From: Pseudomonadota bacterium
Lineage (GTDB): Bacteria; Pseudomonadota; Gammaproteobacteria; Burkholderiales; Burkholderiaceae_C
Assembly (NCBI GenBank): GCA_021848345.1
Contig: JAJZUV010000013.1
Coordinates: forward strand, 1 to 64,000
Length of the DNA: 64,000 nucleotides
Reading direction: 5' to 3'
Under the pieces are notes generated by a model. It did not search any database. It had not been told where the DNA came from and saw nothing but the letters and a program-made list of their open reading frames with translations. Position numbers and translations under genes: made by a program. This document shows, piece by piece, positions 50,588 through 61,926 of this stretch (positions within the stretch are counted from its first letter, which is position 1; every line of letters begins with the position of its first letter).

Positions 50588-51421
50588 ATGAACGCACCTC
50601 TCGACCACCCGACCGACACCTTGCGCTGGCACCTGGACGACATCGACCTGCAGGCGATCGACCGCGCCGCCGTCGCGCCGCGCGACGACATCTTCCTGCT
50701 CGTGTGCAGTGCCTCCTTCATCGAAAGCGGCACCGACCTGTACACGCGCAACCTGCTCGAATACTTCGCAGGCGACCCCGGATTCGAATCCTGGCTGCGC
50801 GATCGCTGGGAACCCGAGGAACTGCAGCACGGGCGCGCGCTGCGCGCCTACGTGGAGCATGTGTGGCCCGAGTTCGACTGGGAAGGGGCCTTCGCCGACT
50901 TTTTCGACGAATACTCGGCCCTGTGCACGCTGGACGAACTCGAACCCTCGCGCGGGCGCGAACTGGTGGCGCGCTGCATTGTCGAGATGGGCACCACCAC
51001 CTACTACCAGGCGCTCAACGGGATCTGCGAGGAGCCTGTGCTGCGCGACCTGACCTGGCGCATCCGCACCGACGAGGTGCAGCATTACAAGCACTTCTAC
51101 CACCGCTTCCTCAGCTACCGGCGCAGCGAGGGCCTGGGGCGAAGCCAGGTGATCGCGGCGCTGTGGCGCCGCGTGGCCGAACTGCGCCGCAGCGACGCCG
51201 ACGTCGCGCTGCGCCATGCCAGCGCCTGGCGCTGGCGCGACAGCGCCGAGCCGCCCGCGCTGGTCGACGTGCGCCAGCGCCTGTTCGACCGCATGCGCAA
51301 CGAATACCCGATCGAGCTCGCGGTGCGCATGATCATCAAGCCGCTGCAACTCGGCCCGCGGCTGCAGCGCTGGGCCGAGCGTCCGCTCAGCGCACTGGCT
51401 CGGCGCGTGCTGCTGAACTGA
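50588..51421 (+). CDS. Ferritin-like diiron protein (acyl-ACP desaturase-like)
   Basis: 277 residues from ATG 50588. A complete diiron ligand set is visible: Glu46, Glu78-x-x-His81 (EELQHG), Glu133, and Glu163-x-x-His166 (DEVQHY). The spacing and the EELQHG/DEVQHY form resemble soluble acyl-ACP desaturases and related R2-like oxidases. No signal peptide. An O2-dependent oxidation or hydroxylation of a fatty acyl or similar substrate is plausible, but the substrate is unknown. It is convergent with an MGDG-synthase-like gene and the two 3' ends overlap by 35 bases. Confidence 0.8.
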   Translation: MNAPLDHPTDTLRWHLDDIDLQAIDRAAVAPRDDIFLLVCSASFIESGTDLYTRNLLEYFAGDPGFESWLRDRWEPEELQHGRALRAYVEHVWPEFDWEGAFADFFDEYSALCTLDELEPSRGRELVARCIVEMGTTTYYQALNGICEEPVLRDLTWRIRTDEVQHYKHFYHRFLSYRRSEGLGRSQVIAALWRRVAELRRSDADVALRHASAWRWRDSAEPPALVDVRQRLFDRMRNEYPIELAVRMIIKPLQLGPRLQRWAERPLSALARRVLLN

Positions 51422-52565
51422 TCCCGCCCGGCACGCGCTGCGCGTCGCGCAGGATGCGATCGAGCAGCCCGGGAAGCTCGAACACCGCCCGATTGCGCAG
51501 CCCGGCCACGCGCTCGCGGTAGCCGGGCAGCTCGTCCAGCAGCCGGCGCACGGCCGGCGCCACCTGGCGGAACGACGGCAGCACCAGTCCGAGGCCCTGC
51601 TCGCGCACCCACTGCGTGTTGTAGCGCTCCTGCGGCATGGTCCACGCGTTGCGCGTGACCACCACCGGCAGCCCCAGGTGCAGCGCCTCGCTGAGGCTTC
51701 CCGGCCCCGGCTTGCCGACGAAAAAGTCGCCCATGCGCATCACCTCCGCCACGGCGGGAGTGAAGCCCAGCACCAGGCGCGGCGCGCGCGCCGGCTGCGC
51801 GCGCAGGCGCTCGGCCAGTCGCTGGTTGTGGCCGCACAGCAGGATCAGCTGCACGTCGCTCAGGCGCTCGGCGATGCCCAGCATGGAGCGCGCGCCGTGG
51901 CCGCCGAACATGACCACGCCGGTGGGGCGTCGCGGGTCCAGCCCCTGCGCGGCGCGCGCCGCGGCCCGGTCGAAATGCGGGTCGAGGCGGTAGAAATCGG
52001 GGCGGATGATCATGCCCGAGCTCGCGTGCACGCGCTCTGGCGGGTGCCCGGCCTCCAGCGCCTGGCGCACCGCGTGCGCGCTGCCGCAGACGAAGTGCTG
52101 GCGCTGCCCCGGCTCGATCCAGAAATGCGGAGGGTGGTCGGCCAGGTCGGTGAGCACCGTCACGTAGGGCACGCCGGGCAGCGTGCCGGCCAGGCTCTGG
52201 TACAGCGCACGGTTGAAGTTCGGGATCAGCGAGACCACGAGATCGGGTTCGCTGCGCGCCCAGTGCTGCTGCAGCGCGCGCACCAGGCTGGGGTGCAGCA
52301 GGTGGATCAGCGCCTGCAGCACGCGCAGCTCGGTGCGCAGGCCCAGCGTGAGGCCGTGCGCCAGGCGAGCGTTGTAGTAGTCCTCGGGCGAGAAGGTGCG
52401 CCTACGCAGCGCGCCCCCCGGATCGAGCAGCTCGGTGAGGTTGACCAGGCGCACCTCCCAGCCCAGCCCGGCCTCCGCCAGCGCCTGCTGCAGCGCCTGC
52501 GCGGAGGCCCGGTGGCCGCCGCCGGCGTTGAAGTACACCAGGTCGACGCGCGTGGGCGTGCTCAC
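51387..52565 (-). CDS. Glycosyltransferase of the MGDG synthase/MurG-like (GT28) type
   Basis: 392 residues from GTG 52565, which overlaps the stop of the ATPase gene (GTGA); no better start exists nearby. The N-terminus DLVYFNAGGGHRASAQALQQAL is the Gly-rich loop of the galactosyldiacylglycerol synthase family. The C-terminal half has VVMFGGHGARSMLGIAERL, GFTPAVAEVMRMGDFFVGKPGPGSLSEAL and the nucleotide-sugar-binding Glu in that stretch. Family members move galactose or glucose from UDP-sugar onto diacylglycerol, making non-phosphorus membrane lipids. Translational coupling to an ABC transporter is unusual. The last 12 codons overlap the convergent diiron gene. Confidence 0.85.
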   Translation of the reverse strand: MSTPTRVDLVYFNAGGGHRASAQALQQALAEAGLGWEVRLVNLTELLDPGGALRRRTFSPEDYYNARLAHGLTLGLRTELRVLQALIHLLHPSLVRALQQHWARSEPDLVVSLIPNFNRALYQSLAGTLPGVPYVTVLTDLADHPPHFWIEPGQRQHFVCGSAHAVRQALEAGHPPERVHASSGMIIRPDFYRLDPHFDRAAARAAQGLDPRRPTGVVMFGGHGARSMLGIAERLSDVQLILLCGHNQRLAERLRAQPARAPRLVLGFTPAVAEVMRMGDFFVGKPGPGSLSEALHLGLPVVVTRNAWTMPQERYNTQWVREQGLGLVLPSFRQVAPAVRRLLDELPGYRERVAGLRNRAVFELPGLLDRILRDAQRVPGGISSAARAEPVR

Positions 52566-53920
52566 TCGCCGGTCCCCTCGTCCGGCTCCTCGCCGGGGTT
52601 GTCCAGGCTGAACACGTCGGCGTTGTCGTCGTAGGCGTAGACCTCGGCGTAGCGACCCCAGTCGATCGCCGTGTCGAGCACGCGCTCGGCCTCCTCCTCG
52701 CTGAGCAGATCCTCCAGTTCGGTGCGAAAGCGCGTGCCGGGGGCGCGGTGGTTGTGGCGCTCGTCGAGCACCGCGCGCACCCGCGCGGCCAGCGGCACGC
52801 GCGCGATCAGGTGTCGCGCGAACAGCTCCTTGCGCTCCTGCACGTCGGCGTCCACGAACAGGCGCCCGGCGGCGGTCAGCTCGATGTCGCCGTCCGCCAC
52901 CTGCGCGAAGCCCAGCAGTTCCACGGCTTCGATCAGCGGGAACAGGTCGTCGACCGAGAAATGCATGTCCTCGGCCAGCTCGGGCAGGCTGATGCGGCTG
53001 TTGCCCGAGCCCTGTTCCAGCGCGTTGAGCTCCTCCAGCAGGCCGGCGAGCTGGTTCACCGACACCGGCGGCAGGCGGTGGCCGATGCTCAGCGCGCCGC
53101 GCTGGGCCACGTTCACCGCGGCCGCCGGGCGCGAGGTCATGATGCCGTAGATGTGCTCCACCAGATCGCGGAACTCCTGCGATTCGCGGTCGCGCGGCTG
53201 CGCCAGATCCACCGGGATCTCCGCGCGAACCCGTCCCGGGTTGGAGCCCAGGATGAGGATGCGGTCGGCCATCAGCGCCGCCTCCTCGATGTTGTGCGAG
53301 ACCAGCAAGATGCCGCGGGTGGGAATCTTGCGCTCGGCCCACAGGTCGAGCAGGTCGGTCCGCATGGTCTCGGCGGTCAGCACGTCCAGCGCCGAGAAGG
53401 GCTCGTCCATCAACAGCACGTCGGGGTTGATGACCAGCGCGCGCGCGAAGCCCACGCGCTGGCGCATGCCTCCGGAGAGCTCGCGCGGGTAGGCGGACTC
53501 GAAACCGTCCAGGCCGATCAGGTCGATCGCAGCCAGCGCGCGCTGGCGGCGCTCGGCCTGCGGCACTTTCAGCGCCTCCAGGCCCAGCTCCACGTTCTGC
53601 AGCACGGTCAGCCACGGGAACAGCGCGAAACTCTGGAACACCATGGCCAGCCCCGGCACCGGCCCCTCGATCGGGCGCCCGCGATGCAGCAGCGTGCCGG
53701 CGCTGGGCTCCGACAGCCCCGCCAGCATGCGCAGCAGCGTGGACTTGCCTGAACCCGAGCGCCCCAGCAGCACCAGGATCTCGTGCTCGCGCAGGCGAAG
53801 GTTGACGTCGTCGAGGATCAGCAGCTCGGTACCGTCGGGCGCCTTGAAGGCCTTGCGCACGTGCTCGGCACGGAACAGGTCGGGCGCCTCGGTGTTCGGG
53901 GATTCGGGTTGGGCGGACAT
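52562..53920 (-). CDS. ABC transporter ATPase, nitrate/sulfonate type, with C-terminal AAA-associated domain
   Basis: 452 residues. Walker A GRSGSGKST (residues 53-61), Q-loop Gln96, signature LSGGMRQ (148-154), Walker B LLMDEP (169-174) and the H-loop VSHN are intact. This is the SsuB/NrtD/TauB class. After residue about 265 a second domain of about 180 residues (SVNQLAGLLEELNALEQG... DTAIDWGRYAEVYAYDD) matches the AAA-associated C-terminal domain found in some of these ATPases and probably regulatory. It is 43 bases after the fused permease and overlaps the glycosyltransferase start by 4 bases. Substrate unknown; no binding protein is adjacent. Confidence 0.92.
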   Translation of the reverse strand: MSAQPESPNTEAPDLFRAEHVRKAFKAPDGTELLILDDVNLRLREHEILVLLGRSGSGKSTLLRMLAGLSEPSAGTLLHRGRPIEGPVPGLAMVFQSFALFPWLTVLQNVELGLEALKVPQAERRQRALAAIDLIGLDGFESAYPRELSGGMRQRVGFARALVINPDVLLMDEPFSALDVLTAETMRTDLLDLWAERKIPTRGILLVSHNIEEAALMADRILILGSNPGRVRAEIPVDLAQPRDRESQEFRDLVEHIYGIMTSRPAAAVNVAQRGALSIGHRLPPVSVNQLAGLLEELNALEQGSGNSRISLPELAEDMHFSVDDLFPLIEAVELLGFAQVADGDIELTAAGRLFVDADVQERKELFARHLIARVPLAARVRAVLDERHNHRAPGTRFRTELEDLLSEEEAERVLDTAIDWGRYAEVYAYDDNADVFSLDNPGEEPDEGTGE

Positions 53921-53963
53921 GCCGTTCGGACTCGCTCGGTTGCGGGAATGCGCGACGGACCCT

Positions 53964-55676
53964 TCAGTCCAGTCGCACGCGGCGGGCGGCCAGCTGGTAC
54001 AGGCGATGCCAGATCAGCCGGTTGACCAGGATCACGTACAGGGACATCACGCCGACCCCCAGCGCGATGTCGGCCCCCCTGCCCTGCGCGGTGGCCTCGC
54101 TGATGAACGAGCCCAGCCCGGTGGCCACCAGGGTCTTGTCGCCCCAGCTCACCACCTCGGCGACGATGCTGGCGTTCCACGCGCCGCCCGACGCGGTGAT
54201 GGCGCCGGTGATGAAACCGGGGAACACCCCCGGCAGGTACAGGCGTTTCCACAGCAGCCAGCCACGCAGGCCCAGATTCTGCGCCGCCTCGCGCATGTCG
54301 TTGGGAATCGCCGAGGCCGAGCCGACCACCGAGAACAGCACGTACCACATGCTGCCCAGGATCATCAGCGGCGCCGTCCACACGTCCACGTTCAGGTGCC
54401 AGTGCACGATGATCACCACGAACAGCGGGAACAGCAGGTTGGCGGGGAAGGCGGCCAGGAACTGCGCCAGCGGCTGCACGGCGGCGGCCAGGCGCGGGCG
54501 CAGCCCCACCCACACGCCTACCGGCACCCATACCAGCGCCGACAGGCCCACCAGCACGAACACCTTGAAACCGGTGAGCAGGCCCAGCCACAGCACGTGA
54601 CCCACCAGCGGCCAGCCGAAGTCGCGCGGCAGCACCTCGCCCAGGCGCACCACGGACCAGATGGCGAACACCACCACGGCGGCGTAGAAGACCGTGTCGC
54701 CGCGGCGCCAGCTCCGCGCCTGGGCCGCGGGGCGGTTCTGCACCCGCGGCATCAGACGCACGCTGAGCTGCCACAGGGCCTGGGGCAGCGCGGCGAACTG
54801 CCGCAGCAGATGGGTACGCCGCAGGAAATCCAGCACCCACGAGCGCGGCGCGTCGCCCGAGGCGGTCATCTCCAGCTTGAACTTGTCGGCCCAGGCGACG
54901 ATGGGACGGAACAGCAGGGTGTCGTACAGCACGATGATCACGATCATCGCGCCGATGGCCAGCCCGATCGCACCCAGGTCGCGGCTGGCGATGGCCTGCG
55001 CGATGTAGGAGCCGATGCCCGGCACCTTGACCTCGTGGCCGGACACCGTGATGGCCTCGGACGCCACGACGAAGAACCAGCCGCCGGACATGGACATCAT
55101 GGTGTTCCACAGCAGCCCCGGCATCGCGAAGGGCAGCTCCAGCTTCCAGAAGCGCTGCCATGCGTTGAGCCGGTACAGCGTGGCGGCCTCCTGCAGGTCG
55201 CGCGGCACGGTCTTGAGCGACTGGTACAGGCTGAAGGTCATGTTCCAGGCCTGCGAGGTGAACACCGCGAAGATCACCGCCAACTGCACCCCGACCAGGC
55301 TGCCGGGGAACAACGCCATGAAGCCGGTGACGGTGATCGACAGGTACCCCAGAATCGGAACCGACTGCAGCACGTCCAGCACCGGTACCAGCACGCGCTC
55401 GGCGTAGCGGTTGTGCGCGGCCAGCCACGCGTAGATCAAGGTGAACACCAGCGAAATCACCAGCGCCGCCAGCATGCGCAGCACCGTGTACAGCCCGTCG
55501 GCCGGCAGGGCCCAAGGCGACAGGGAGATGGGCAGGGACTGGCCGAGCTGGTAGGGCACGGCCATCTGGCGCCCCGCGTGACTGACGATGAAGAACAGCG
55601 CCAGCACCAGCGGCAGCGCGACCAGATCGCGCCGATTGGGCACGGGCAGGGGCAGGCGGCGCAGGGCTTGGGACAT
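53964..55676 (-). CDS. ABC transporter permease with two fused membrane domains
   Basis: 570 residues from ATG 55676 (MSQALRRLPLPVPNRRDL). Two binding-protein-dependent permease domains lie in one chain. The first has the EAA loop EAATLYRLNAWQRFWKLELPFAMPG (about residue 195) and the second EAAQNLGLRGWLLWKRLYLPGVFPG (about residue 470), separated by a soluble linker near 320-350. Most SsuC/TauC relatives are single-domain homodimers, so the fusion supplies a full translocation pathway. With the adjacent ATPase it forms an importer of the nitrate/sulfonate/taurine class, but no solute-binding protein gene is next to it. Confidence 0.9.
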   Translation of the reverse strand: MSQALRRLPLPVPNRRDLVALPLVLALFFIVSHAGRQMAVPYQLGQSLPISLSPWALPADGLYTVLRMLAALVISLVFTLIYAWLAAHNRYAERVLVPVLDVLQSVPILGYLSITVTGFMALFPGSLVGVQLAVIFAVFTSQAWNMTFSLYQSLKTVPRDLQEAATLYRLNAWQRFWKLELPFAMPGLLWNTMMSMSGGWFFVVASEAITVSGHEVKVPGIGSYIAQAIASRDLGAIGLAIGAMIVIIVLYDTLLFRPIVAWADKFKLEMTASGDAPRSWVLDFLRRTHLLRQFAALPQALWQLSVRLMPRVQNRPAAQARSWRRGDTVFYAAVVVFAIWSVVRLGEVLPRDFGWPLVGHVLWLGLLTGFKVFVLVGLSALVWVPVGVWVGLRPRLAAAVQPLAQFLAAFPANLLFPLFVVIIVHWHLNVDVWTAPLMILGSMWYVLFSVVGSASAIPNDMREAAQNLGLRGWLLWKRLYLPGVFPGFITGAITASGGAWNASIVAEVVSWGDKTLVATGLGSFISEATAQGRGADIALGVGVMSLYVILVNRLIWHRLYQLAARRVRLD

Positions 55677-56059
55677 CGCGGAGTTTGGCGGGGACTGGCA
55701 CGTCGACGCGTGCGCGACGGCTCGAAACGACAGGAAGCACGGCAGGAGCCGCGGAGAACAGGCAGCGACCGACCACGAGAAACCGGCTCCGGCGCCGCGA
55801 ACGGAATGCGCCGGACGGGGACCCCGGCACGCCAGCCCGCGGCGCGCAAAGAGGCCCGCCGCGCCGATGTCGCGACGAAGCACCTCCGCCGTTAGTCTAA
55901 AGGCTCCATTTTGACATTAGTGTGACCTCGCGAATTCAGCCATAAACGGTCCGCCCGCCCGGAGCCGCGGGGCGGGGCGACCCTGCGAGCCTCGGCCGCG
56001 GCAGCGACCAGGGCATGGGTCGGGGCACAATCGGGACCTCGATCCACCGCCCGCGCTCC
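55677..56059. other. 383-base divergent intergenic region between ABC permease and CDF genes
   Basis: No credible gene. A short A+T-richer core (about 55890-55946) contains a perfect -35 hexamer TTGACA (55911-55916) on the plus strand. The -10 region after a 16-18 base spacer (AATTCA/ATTCAG) is weak. On the minus strand TAGACT could serve as -10 for the permease gene. The flanks on both sides are GC-rich and unremarkable. Confidence 0.4.
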
Positions 56060-60993: not shown

Positions 60994-61926
60994 ATGCTCC
61001 TGTTCGCCACGCAGCGCCGCGCGCGCACCCACGCCCCCCTCTCCGGCCTGTGTCGAGCCGTCGCAGCGGTGCTGAGCTGCGCGGCGCTCGGGGCCGCCGC
61101 CCACGCGGCACCGGCGGCCGCGGGCGCCACGCAGCTGCTGCGGGTGCAGAACGGACTGGTGCAGGAAAACGAGGTCGCGGCGGCCAACGGCGCGCAGGCG
61201 CTGGCCGACGCCATCACCAAGGCCACCGGCAAGCGCACCTTGTGGATGGCCCACGACGCCATCGGCGCCACGCTGGCCGCGCAACCCGCCGAATACGCCT
61301 TCGTCAAGCCGCCCAGCGCCAGCGCCAAGCTGCTGGCCAAGGGCTGGCACCTGGTCGCGGTGGCGCAGGCGCCGCACGGTTTCGGGGTCGACTTCATCGC
61401 CCAGCCCTGCCCCGGGCACGCGGCCGGGGTGCTGCTCGGAGGCCCCACGCTGAGCACCCTGGGGGTGGCCACCGACGCCCCGGCGAAATGCGTGTCCCTG
61501 CGCGACGTCTGGACCGAGCCCGGCGCGGTGCTGCTGGCCCCGGCCAAGGGCAGCCTGGTGGACAAGGTGGCGGCCAAGCTGTGGCTGCAACATGCCAGCA
61601 AGCTGCCGCCCACCGTGCACGTGCAGTACCAGAACGCGGTCACCGACTTCATGCGGGTCACGCATGCCGCGGTGATCGGGGTGGTCACGCCGCTGGTGTC
61701 GGCGCAGTGGCGCGCCGCCGGGGGCGTCGTGCTGGCGCACCAGGAGATGCCCTTCTGGACCGTGCTCGCGGCCCCCTCGGTGGGCGCCGACCAGGTGGGC
61801 AAGGTGCGCGCCGCGCTGCTCTCGCCCGACGCGCGGCCGATGGACCGCGCGCTGCACGTGAGCGGCTGGGTGGCCGGCGACCCGCAGGTCTACGCCGACT
61901 TCATGCACTGGCTGGCGGCGCGCTGA
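60994..61926 (+). CDS. Periplasmic PhnD-like substrate-binding protein
   Basis: 310 residues from ATG 60994. Signal peptide to about residue 36 (ALGAAAHAAPAAAG). The remaining type II periplasmic-binding fold resembles PhnD/SsuA/transferrin-like proteins: NGAQALADAITKATGKRTLW at the first lobe and VQYQNAVTDFMRVTHAAVIGVVTP at the hinge. The usual phosphonate-pocket residues are not obvious. No ATPase or permease is adjacent. It could serve a distant transporter, or the binding-protein-less importer near 54 kb, but this is speculative. It is convergent with gshB across 29 bases. Confidence 0.68.
   Translation: MLLFATQRRARTHAPLSGLCRAVAAVLSCAALGAAAHAAPAAAGATQLLRVQNGLVQENEVAAANGAQALADAITKATGKRTLWMAHDAIGATLAAQPAEYAFVKPPSASAKLLAKGWHLVAVAQAPHGFGVDFIAQPCPGHAAGVLLGGPTLSTLGVATDAPAKCVSLRDVWTEPGAVLLAPAKGSLVDKVAAKLWLQHASKLPPTVHVQYQNAVTDFMRVTHAAVIGVVTPLVSAQWRAAGGVVLAHQEMPFWTVLAAPSVGADQVGKVRAALLSPDARPMDRALHVSGWVAGDPQVYADFMHWLAAR

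Follow-up and report, generated by a model that had tools for sequence, protein, structure and literature searches.

In this study, we analyzed a 64,000-nucleotide stretch of contig JAJZUV010000013.1 (assembly GCA_021848345.1, a Pseudomonadota bacterium of the Burkholderiaceae_C; hereafter the window), and focused on three reverse-strand genes that encode the permease and ATPase of an ATP-binding cassette (ABC) transporter and a glycosyltransferase (GT). The permease (55676-53964) has 570 amino acids (aa) and joins two MetI-type membrane domains in a single chain, and the ATPase (53920-52562) has 452 aa and carries a C-terminal AAA_assoc_C domain (PF09821) behind its ABC_tran domain. They are followed by a GT28 or monogalactosyldiacylglycerol (MGDG)-synthase-like glycosyltransferase of 392 aa (51387-52565), probably a diacylglycerol glycosyltransferase, whose GTG start codon shares the 4-nt overlap GTGA (52562-52565) with the stop codon of the ATPase gene. 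Upstream of the permease, on the same strand, lies a direct repeat that resembles a Pho box (GTCA-N7-GTCA), and 12 nt further on stands TAGACT, a putative -10 element (the whole at 55894-55926). The three genes and their overlap had been described in an initial annotation of this DNA and were all recovered here. The same is true of the two membrane domains in the single permease chain, where hmmscan found two stretches of PF00528 (BPD_transp_1; 104.1 bits for the whole protein) that place it in this family, and of the extra domain on the ATPase, where PF09821 scored 152.3 bits with hmmscan and 155.8 bits in the genome search. The locus is best read as a phosphate-starvation operon for lipid remodelling into which a widespread ABC transporter, with no binding protein that we could recognise, has been incorporated.

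The assignment of the GT as a diacylglycerol glycosyltransferase is well supported by sequence comparison. Pfam support was thin: PF06925 (MGDG_synth) passed its cut-off narrowly (26.1 versus 25 bits) and Glyco_tran_28_C stayed below its own (20.3 versus 22 bits; both by hmmscan). However, phmmer matches to solved structures were clear, both to Arabidopsis MGD1 (4wyi; E 1.3e-24, query residues 4-340), with homology extending through the Glyco_tran_28_C part, and to a processive diacylglycerol glucosyltransferase (9wde; E 2.3e-18, query residues 105-346).

The order of ATPase and GT was conserved in the relatives of this bacterium. The GT was present in 27 of the 28 genomes of the window's genus, and in all 27 it was preceded by the ATPase gene in the same orientation. 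Measured from extrapolated tblastn ends, the two genes are about -4 to +96 nt apart, and a gap of -4 was found in 8 of the genomes. In one genome (G350) the GT is split between two contig fragments, one of which shows the ATPase (gap 25) and the other does not, and the genome was read from the former. We also scanned named genomes with the GT alignment and used the best 80 of 556 confirmed stretches. The first 23 of these loci came from Thiomonas and a related metagenome group, and the ATPase was upstream on the same strand in 22 of 22 testable loci (gap 0-782 nt); locus L195 was not counted, its contig ending before the ATPase, too near the GT. It should be noted that the named loci overlap with the genus genomes, and the two counts are not independent. 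The ATPase-GT order persisted despite an intervening gene at two Thiomonas loci (L116 and L117) and a five-gene difference on the other side of the GT (L115 and L116). In contrast, the ATPase was near the GT at none of the 57 named loci of other genera (Hydrogenophaga, Variovorax, Rubrivivax, Malikia and others); the sequence is truncated less than 1.5 kb from the GT at 4 of these loci on the upstream side and at 3 on the downstream side. In the class sample, the GT had matches in 8 of 143 genomes, strong only in the window's genome and one other of the same family, and the permease tree showed only that the own lineage forms one clade. With the same-strand order found in every GT-bearing genome of the genus, the arrangement is not due to chance, and it is conserved yet lineage-bound. 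Thus, the trio is not confined to one genome, and the link between GT and transporter drawn in the initial annotation held throughout the genus and the wider Thiomonas lineage, whereas elsewhere the GT stands apart from the transporter.

Alignment of the regions upstream of the permease across the lineage (except for L181 and L195, in which this region is not on the contig) revealed one conserved island, which consists of GTCA-N7-GTCA, 12 nt and TAGACT. Pho boxes have the same 11-bp period, and a 12-nt spacing to the -10 element resembles PhoB promoters. GTCA-N7-GTCA occurs once in the window when both strands are considered, and GTCAYNNNNATGTCA, a pattern chosen after the site had been seen, gave 1 match, with a mean of 0.03 in shuffled sequences and a match in 3 of 100 shuffles. 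The repeat was found in 10 of 12 upstream regions of the lineage (absent from L194 and L196), and spacings of 2-6 and 8-16 were found in 0 or 1. Across the genus, the strict repeat together with TAGACT occurred exactly once in each of 20 of the 28 genomes and never in the reversed control; as this pattern was derived from the kind of site it finds, it is the uniqueness and the empty control that count, not the match itself. Each of the 20 sites precedes a permease gene of the same orientation, whose start follows 43-247 nt after the site ends, and in 18 of these genomes the GT is on the same contig about 3.1-3.4 kb beyond (G356 has no GT match and G363 has its GT on another contig). We consider the site a putative Pho box before the GT operon, and the suggestion of phosphate-limited expression made in the initial annotation would fit such a promoter. 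One further genome of the genus (G174) retains a single half-site upstream of the permease. A different element, a conserved inverted repeat (TGACG ... CGTCA) unlike a Pho box, ends 40-56 nt before the matched GT start at 7 of 10 Thiomonas-side loci (L183-L185, L187 and L189-L191).

Related repeats elsewhere in the genus provided independent support for the identity of the permease site. A stricter Pho-box pattern, without a match in the own genome, gave way to patterns built from plcP sites and from the permease-upstream alignment. Three half-sites at the same period occurred 39 times in the 28 genomes versus 1 control match, a number in which overlapping registers are counted apart and which includes short tandem arrays that are not necessarily Pho boxes. 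Among 30 such loci that were read, 7 precede plcP (in five genomes, two of which are counted in two registers), 13 an acyltransferase of the PF13444 family (our label for these is OlsB-type), 4 a Trans_reg_C gene and 6 lie elsewhere. In the own genome, a plcP-type gene (G000:C14:82010-82801; 62% to the family protein searched) lies behind three half-sites and is followed by a GT4 gene and a diacylglycerol kinase gene; its upstream region matches the E. coli Pho-box consensus at 12 of 14 positions, a score reached by 0 of 300 shuffles. In other genera, the two-half-site repeat preceded PlcP>GT28 in 10 of 16 regions, where single-base shuffles would lead one to expect 0.07; four of these ten repeats (L199, L200, L206 and L214) are near-copies, each located about 200 nt upstream. 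It also preceded a lone GT28 gene in 6 of 24 regions (0.08 expected), a plcP gene convergent with GT28 in 2 of 3 regions (0.01 expected) and phosphatidylserine decarboxylase (PSD)>GT28 in 1 of 14 (0.04 expected); these loci are related, and the counts overstate their independence. The repeats before plcP-type, PF13444 and Trans_reg_C genes in genomes of the genus (for example, L269 and L279) may serve as a starting list for a putative phosphate regulon.

The settings of the GT outside its own lineage fit diacylglycerol-linked lipid synthesis. In a 200-genome sample of the family, a close GT (at least 51% identity) was present in 36 genomes and PF09821 in 42. Among 31 sampled family genomes outside the lineage, the GT lay within 300 bp of a PlcP-type metallophosphoesterase gene in 18 and within 2 kb in 4 more. 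PlcP was likewise within 200 bp of the GT at 23 of the 57 named loci of other genera, and a PSD gene, often together with GT4, was found at 16 of the 57. We also considered the mere presence of PlcP as a correlate of the GT; it was uninformative, with matches (E up to 0.001, weak ones included) in 164 of the 200 family genomes. A second GT28 neighbourhood was noticed as well (L121, L123, L124, L128 and L130), which combines PSD, an aminotransferase-like gene, a small membrane protein gene and GT4; the aminotransferase and membrane-protein names were assigned by eye.

No binding-protein gene could be recognised beside the ABC pair of the window, as the initial annotation had remarked. Matches to NMT1 or NMT1_2 in the own genome (six rows) fall in four places, each beside other partners: two (C2 and C31) adjoin a permease and an ATPase of their own, one (C19) stands beside an ANTAR protein and reads as NasS-NasT-like, and one (C38) stands beside a DctM transporter. 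Thus, no spare NMT1-type binding protein was found in this genome, which is 93.7% complete and was searched as a whole for this type only. The ABC pair is a bicistronic system, and 27 of 143 class genomes contain its PF09821 domain. Reading by eye of its neighbours at 20 family and class loci (L094-L113) and 20 class loci (L154-L173), some of which are cut short or poorly gene-called, revealed one binding-protein gene beside the pair, a divergent TctC-type receptor gene at L096, and none at the rest.

The same loci hint at a role of the ABC pair in the cell envelope. In 6 of 26 class loci, the next same-strand gene downstream encodes a Kdo hydroxylase (2 loci), a KdsD-like SIS-CBS protein, named from a reading of its domains (2 loci), or TamA (2 loci). 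One of the KdsD-like genes is followed by LptC-LptA-LptB and one of the TamA genes by TamB, and at two further class loci the pair stands beside a divergent MlaE gene and a convergent acyltransferase gene, respectively. These neighbours (those other than the acyltransferase gene at L109, L112, L113, L160, L161, L172 and L170, all from other Gammaproteobacteria) were noted post hoc, without a base rate, and belong partly to related pairs in the permease tree; an envelope role is thinkable, and only hinted at.

On the basis of these results, we regard it as fairly probable, from sequence, that the three genes form a PhoB-type phosphate-starvation operon for membrane-lipid replacement in which the GT has the role described below, a judgement that does not extend to the cargo of the ABC pair. 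When phosphate is scarce, PhoB would bind the repeat at 55894-55926, and permease, ATPase and GT would be transcribed together. Elsewhere in the genome, a gene with a Pho box of its own would provide a PlcP-type enzyme that cuts phospholipids to diacylglycerol, to which the GT28 enzyme would add a sugar to yield a phosphorus-free glycolipid; homology and the neighbours of the GT in relatives suggest both steps. The ABC pair, which is widespread in Gammaproteobacteria, would be a module of importer fold for which no binding protein has been recognised, and in the window's lineage it shares the operon. Perhaps its likeliest contribution would be to assist this replacement of lipids, for which it might carry an envelope component or a small anionic solute over the inner membrane. 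A lipid or envelope component as cargo is conceivable, with the balance tilting against it, and a more specific version, in which an envelope-lipid transporter of importer fold that moves lipid or a lipid-linked glycan was recruited to a glycolipid operon, appears unlikely. The initial annotation had favored lipid- or membrane-related transport over nitrate uptake; the link to a lipid enzyme and the nitrate scores below cut-off (see below) agree with it, whereas lipid movement by the pair itself is something that we only infer.

Several observations weigh against the operon as proposed. In Thiomonas, the gap between ATPase and GT is mostly wider (120-782 nt), and both gene-called Thiomonas genomes (L116 and L117) carry a small opposite-strand gene within it, which makes a single transcript less likely there. 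Flanking genes are syntenic across the genus too, and part of the conserved adjacency is therefore due to shared synteny. The strict repeat is absent from 8 of the 28 genus genomes and, on the Thiomonas side, the repeat was found upstream of the permease at 0 of 7 loci and upstream of the GT at 0 of 10, though the gene order is kept. It is also missing upstream of the permease at 33 of 33 ABC loci of other lineages (7 of the 40 loci, L095, L108, L111, L154, L155, L159 and L170, had no usable permease start and were dropped), or at 36 of 36 (0.15 expected) when G174 and two Thiomonas genomes are added. Because the ABC genes of other lineages lack it, the repeat appears to accompany the GT and not the ABC pair. 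The half-sites in the window are imperfect, and the site matches the E. coli consensus at 9 of 14 positions, a score reached by 46% of shuffles; since this score alone is not significant, the case for the site rests on conservation and exact spacing. Finally, the name PlcP is one that we assume from context. The models matched by the own-genome protein are the metallophosphoesterase family (PF00149) and, far below cut-off, LpxH (42 versus 134 and 31 versus 190), and none of them bears the name PlcP.

Different explanations of the ABC pair should also be considered. First, it is possible, though not probable, that the pair is a phosphate-response importer of organophosphate, phosphonate, sulfonate or another anion whose binding protein is encoded elsewhere and escaped recognition, and that it shares the promoter only through phosphate regulation. 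The permease is of importer type, its nearest family models being those for nitrate, choline and glycine betaine, among others, and its best sequence matches in the PDB being CmpB and a nitrate permease; the Pho-box-like promoter would suit such an importer. A candidate for the binding protein might be seen in a protein that looks exported and belongs to no known family (60997-61926, plus strand), which is encoded near the operon at 6 of 6 genus loci checked, and one ABC locus of another lineage (L096) has the divergent TctC-type receptor gene beside it. However, the exported-looking protein has no family or structure match and was not found near the operon at 2 of 2 Thiomonas loci, and TctC receptors usually work with another type of transporter. 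Apart from L096, no binding protein was seen beside the pair at the 40 loci read by eye, and the genome has no spare one of the NMT1 type.

Second, the ABC pair may be a bystander behind which the GT landed, gaining co-transcription without any shared function, an account that we find rather doubtful. In its favor, each partner is common without the other in the family sample (PF09821 in 42 of 200 genomes and a GT above 50% identity in 36 of 200), the Pho repeat accompanies GT and PlcP and not the ABC genes, and local synteny is generally kept. On the other hand, the repeat stands ahead of the permease and not directly ahead of the GT, the spacing is tight in all 27 GT-bearing genomes of the genus, and the order survives both the intervening gene and the five-gene difference described above. 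The anion importer, the bystander and an envelope role of the pair appear about as likely as one another. Third, an ordinary nitrate, sulfonate or bicarbonate importer beside an unrelated glycosyltransferase is highly improbable: beyond a general family resemblance, the pair has a fused permease, a PF09821 domain and no recognised binding protein, and its scores are far below the curated NCBIfam cut-offs for nitrate, sulfonate and taurine importers among the models listed (ntrB, 58 versus 209; ntrCD, 188 versus 292; taurine ATPase, 206 versus 357; for the ATPase, the best 25 of 186 models were compared). These scores and the lack of a spare NMT1-type protein also speak against orthology to a nitrate or sulfonate importer with a distant binding protein.

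Some additional features of the locus were recorded. The C-terminal part of the ATPase had a predicted fold of too low confidence for use (predicted local distance difference test (pLDDT) score 53.5), and its sequence had no convincing relative among solved structures; the order of its elements may resemble a winged helix, which is a hint only. Convergent with the operon, a plus-strand gene (50588-51421), found at 17 of 23 loci of the lineage, encodes a protein with two ExxH-type motifs. Its predicted fold (pLDDT 89) is most similar to those of acyl-ACP desaturases and of R2-like ligand-binding oxidases, with a best Foldseek match of E 6.1e-4 at 14% identity. The protein at 60997-61926 resembles a periplasmic binding protein by eye, a resemblance that no match backs. 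We tried it as the missing binding protein and dropped it, as family scans and solved-structure searches (single and profile) gave no credible match.

If the proposed operon is correct, it would tie a widespread transporter to phosphate starvation and glycolipid synthesis, which makes the function of this transporter testable, and it points to a GT28 glycolipid enzyme whose gene adjoins a PlcP-type gene in relatives outside the lineage. The transporter may help the cell to rebuild its membranes when phosphate runs out. In open-licence full texts, we recognised nothing that corresponds to this arrangement (the ABC pair, a proteobacterial GT28 or an operon with Pho box, ABC genes and glycolipid enzyme), which is no proof of its absence, and the available portions of the Thiomonas lipid literature, including PMC6182550, contained nothing bearing on the operon.

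Among known systems, the PlcP-Agt pathway of Agrobacterium, Pelagibacter, Pseudomonas aeruginosa and Methylosinus is like the system proposed here in Pho-box control, in the supply of diacylglycerol by PlcP (in the own genome, presumably by the PlcP-type protein) and in a dedicated diacylglycerol glycosyltransferase (PMC8528852, PMC4796936, PMC9239053). According to the same sources, PlcP-Agt makes glycolipids under phosphorus limitation (PMC9239053), Pho boxes of the system have been reported for P. aeruginosa (PMC8528852, PMC4796936, PMC9239053), and in several type Ia methanotrophs a putative diacylglycerol glycosyltransferase of the B. subtilis type replaces Agt near plcP (PMC9239053). The system in the window differs from it in that the GT is GT28-like and not Agt-like (GT4-type), is encoded apart from plcP and shares an operon with an ABC transporter; a separate GT4 gene is the one that follows the own-genome plcP-type gene. 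MGDG synthase and UgtP are homologous in sequence to the GT over most of the protein, whereas the GT in the window is proteobacterial and its relatives are associated with PlcP. Importers of the NitT/TauT type (nitrate, taurine and sulfonate) share the MetI-type permease halves and the ABC ATPase; unlike them, the pair in the window has fused halves, PF09821 on the ATPase, no recognised binding protein and scores below the curated cut-offs. Anion ABC systems with duplicated permease (COG4986 and COG4754), among which the pair may tentatively be placed, likewise combine a fused permease with an ATPase-associated C-terminal domain. Unlike in these systems, a GT28 gene stands behind the pair and a Pho-box-like promoter ahead of it, a combination that, among the loci looked at, was found only in the window's lineage.

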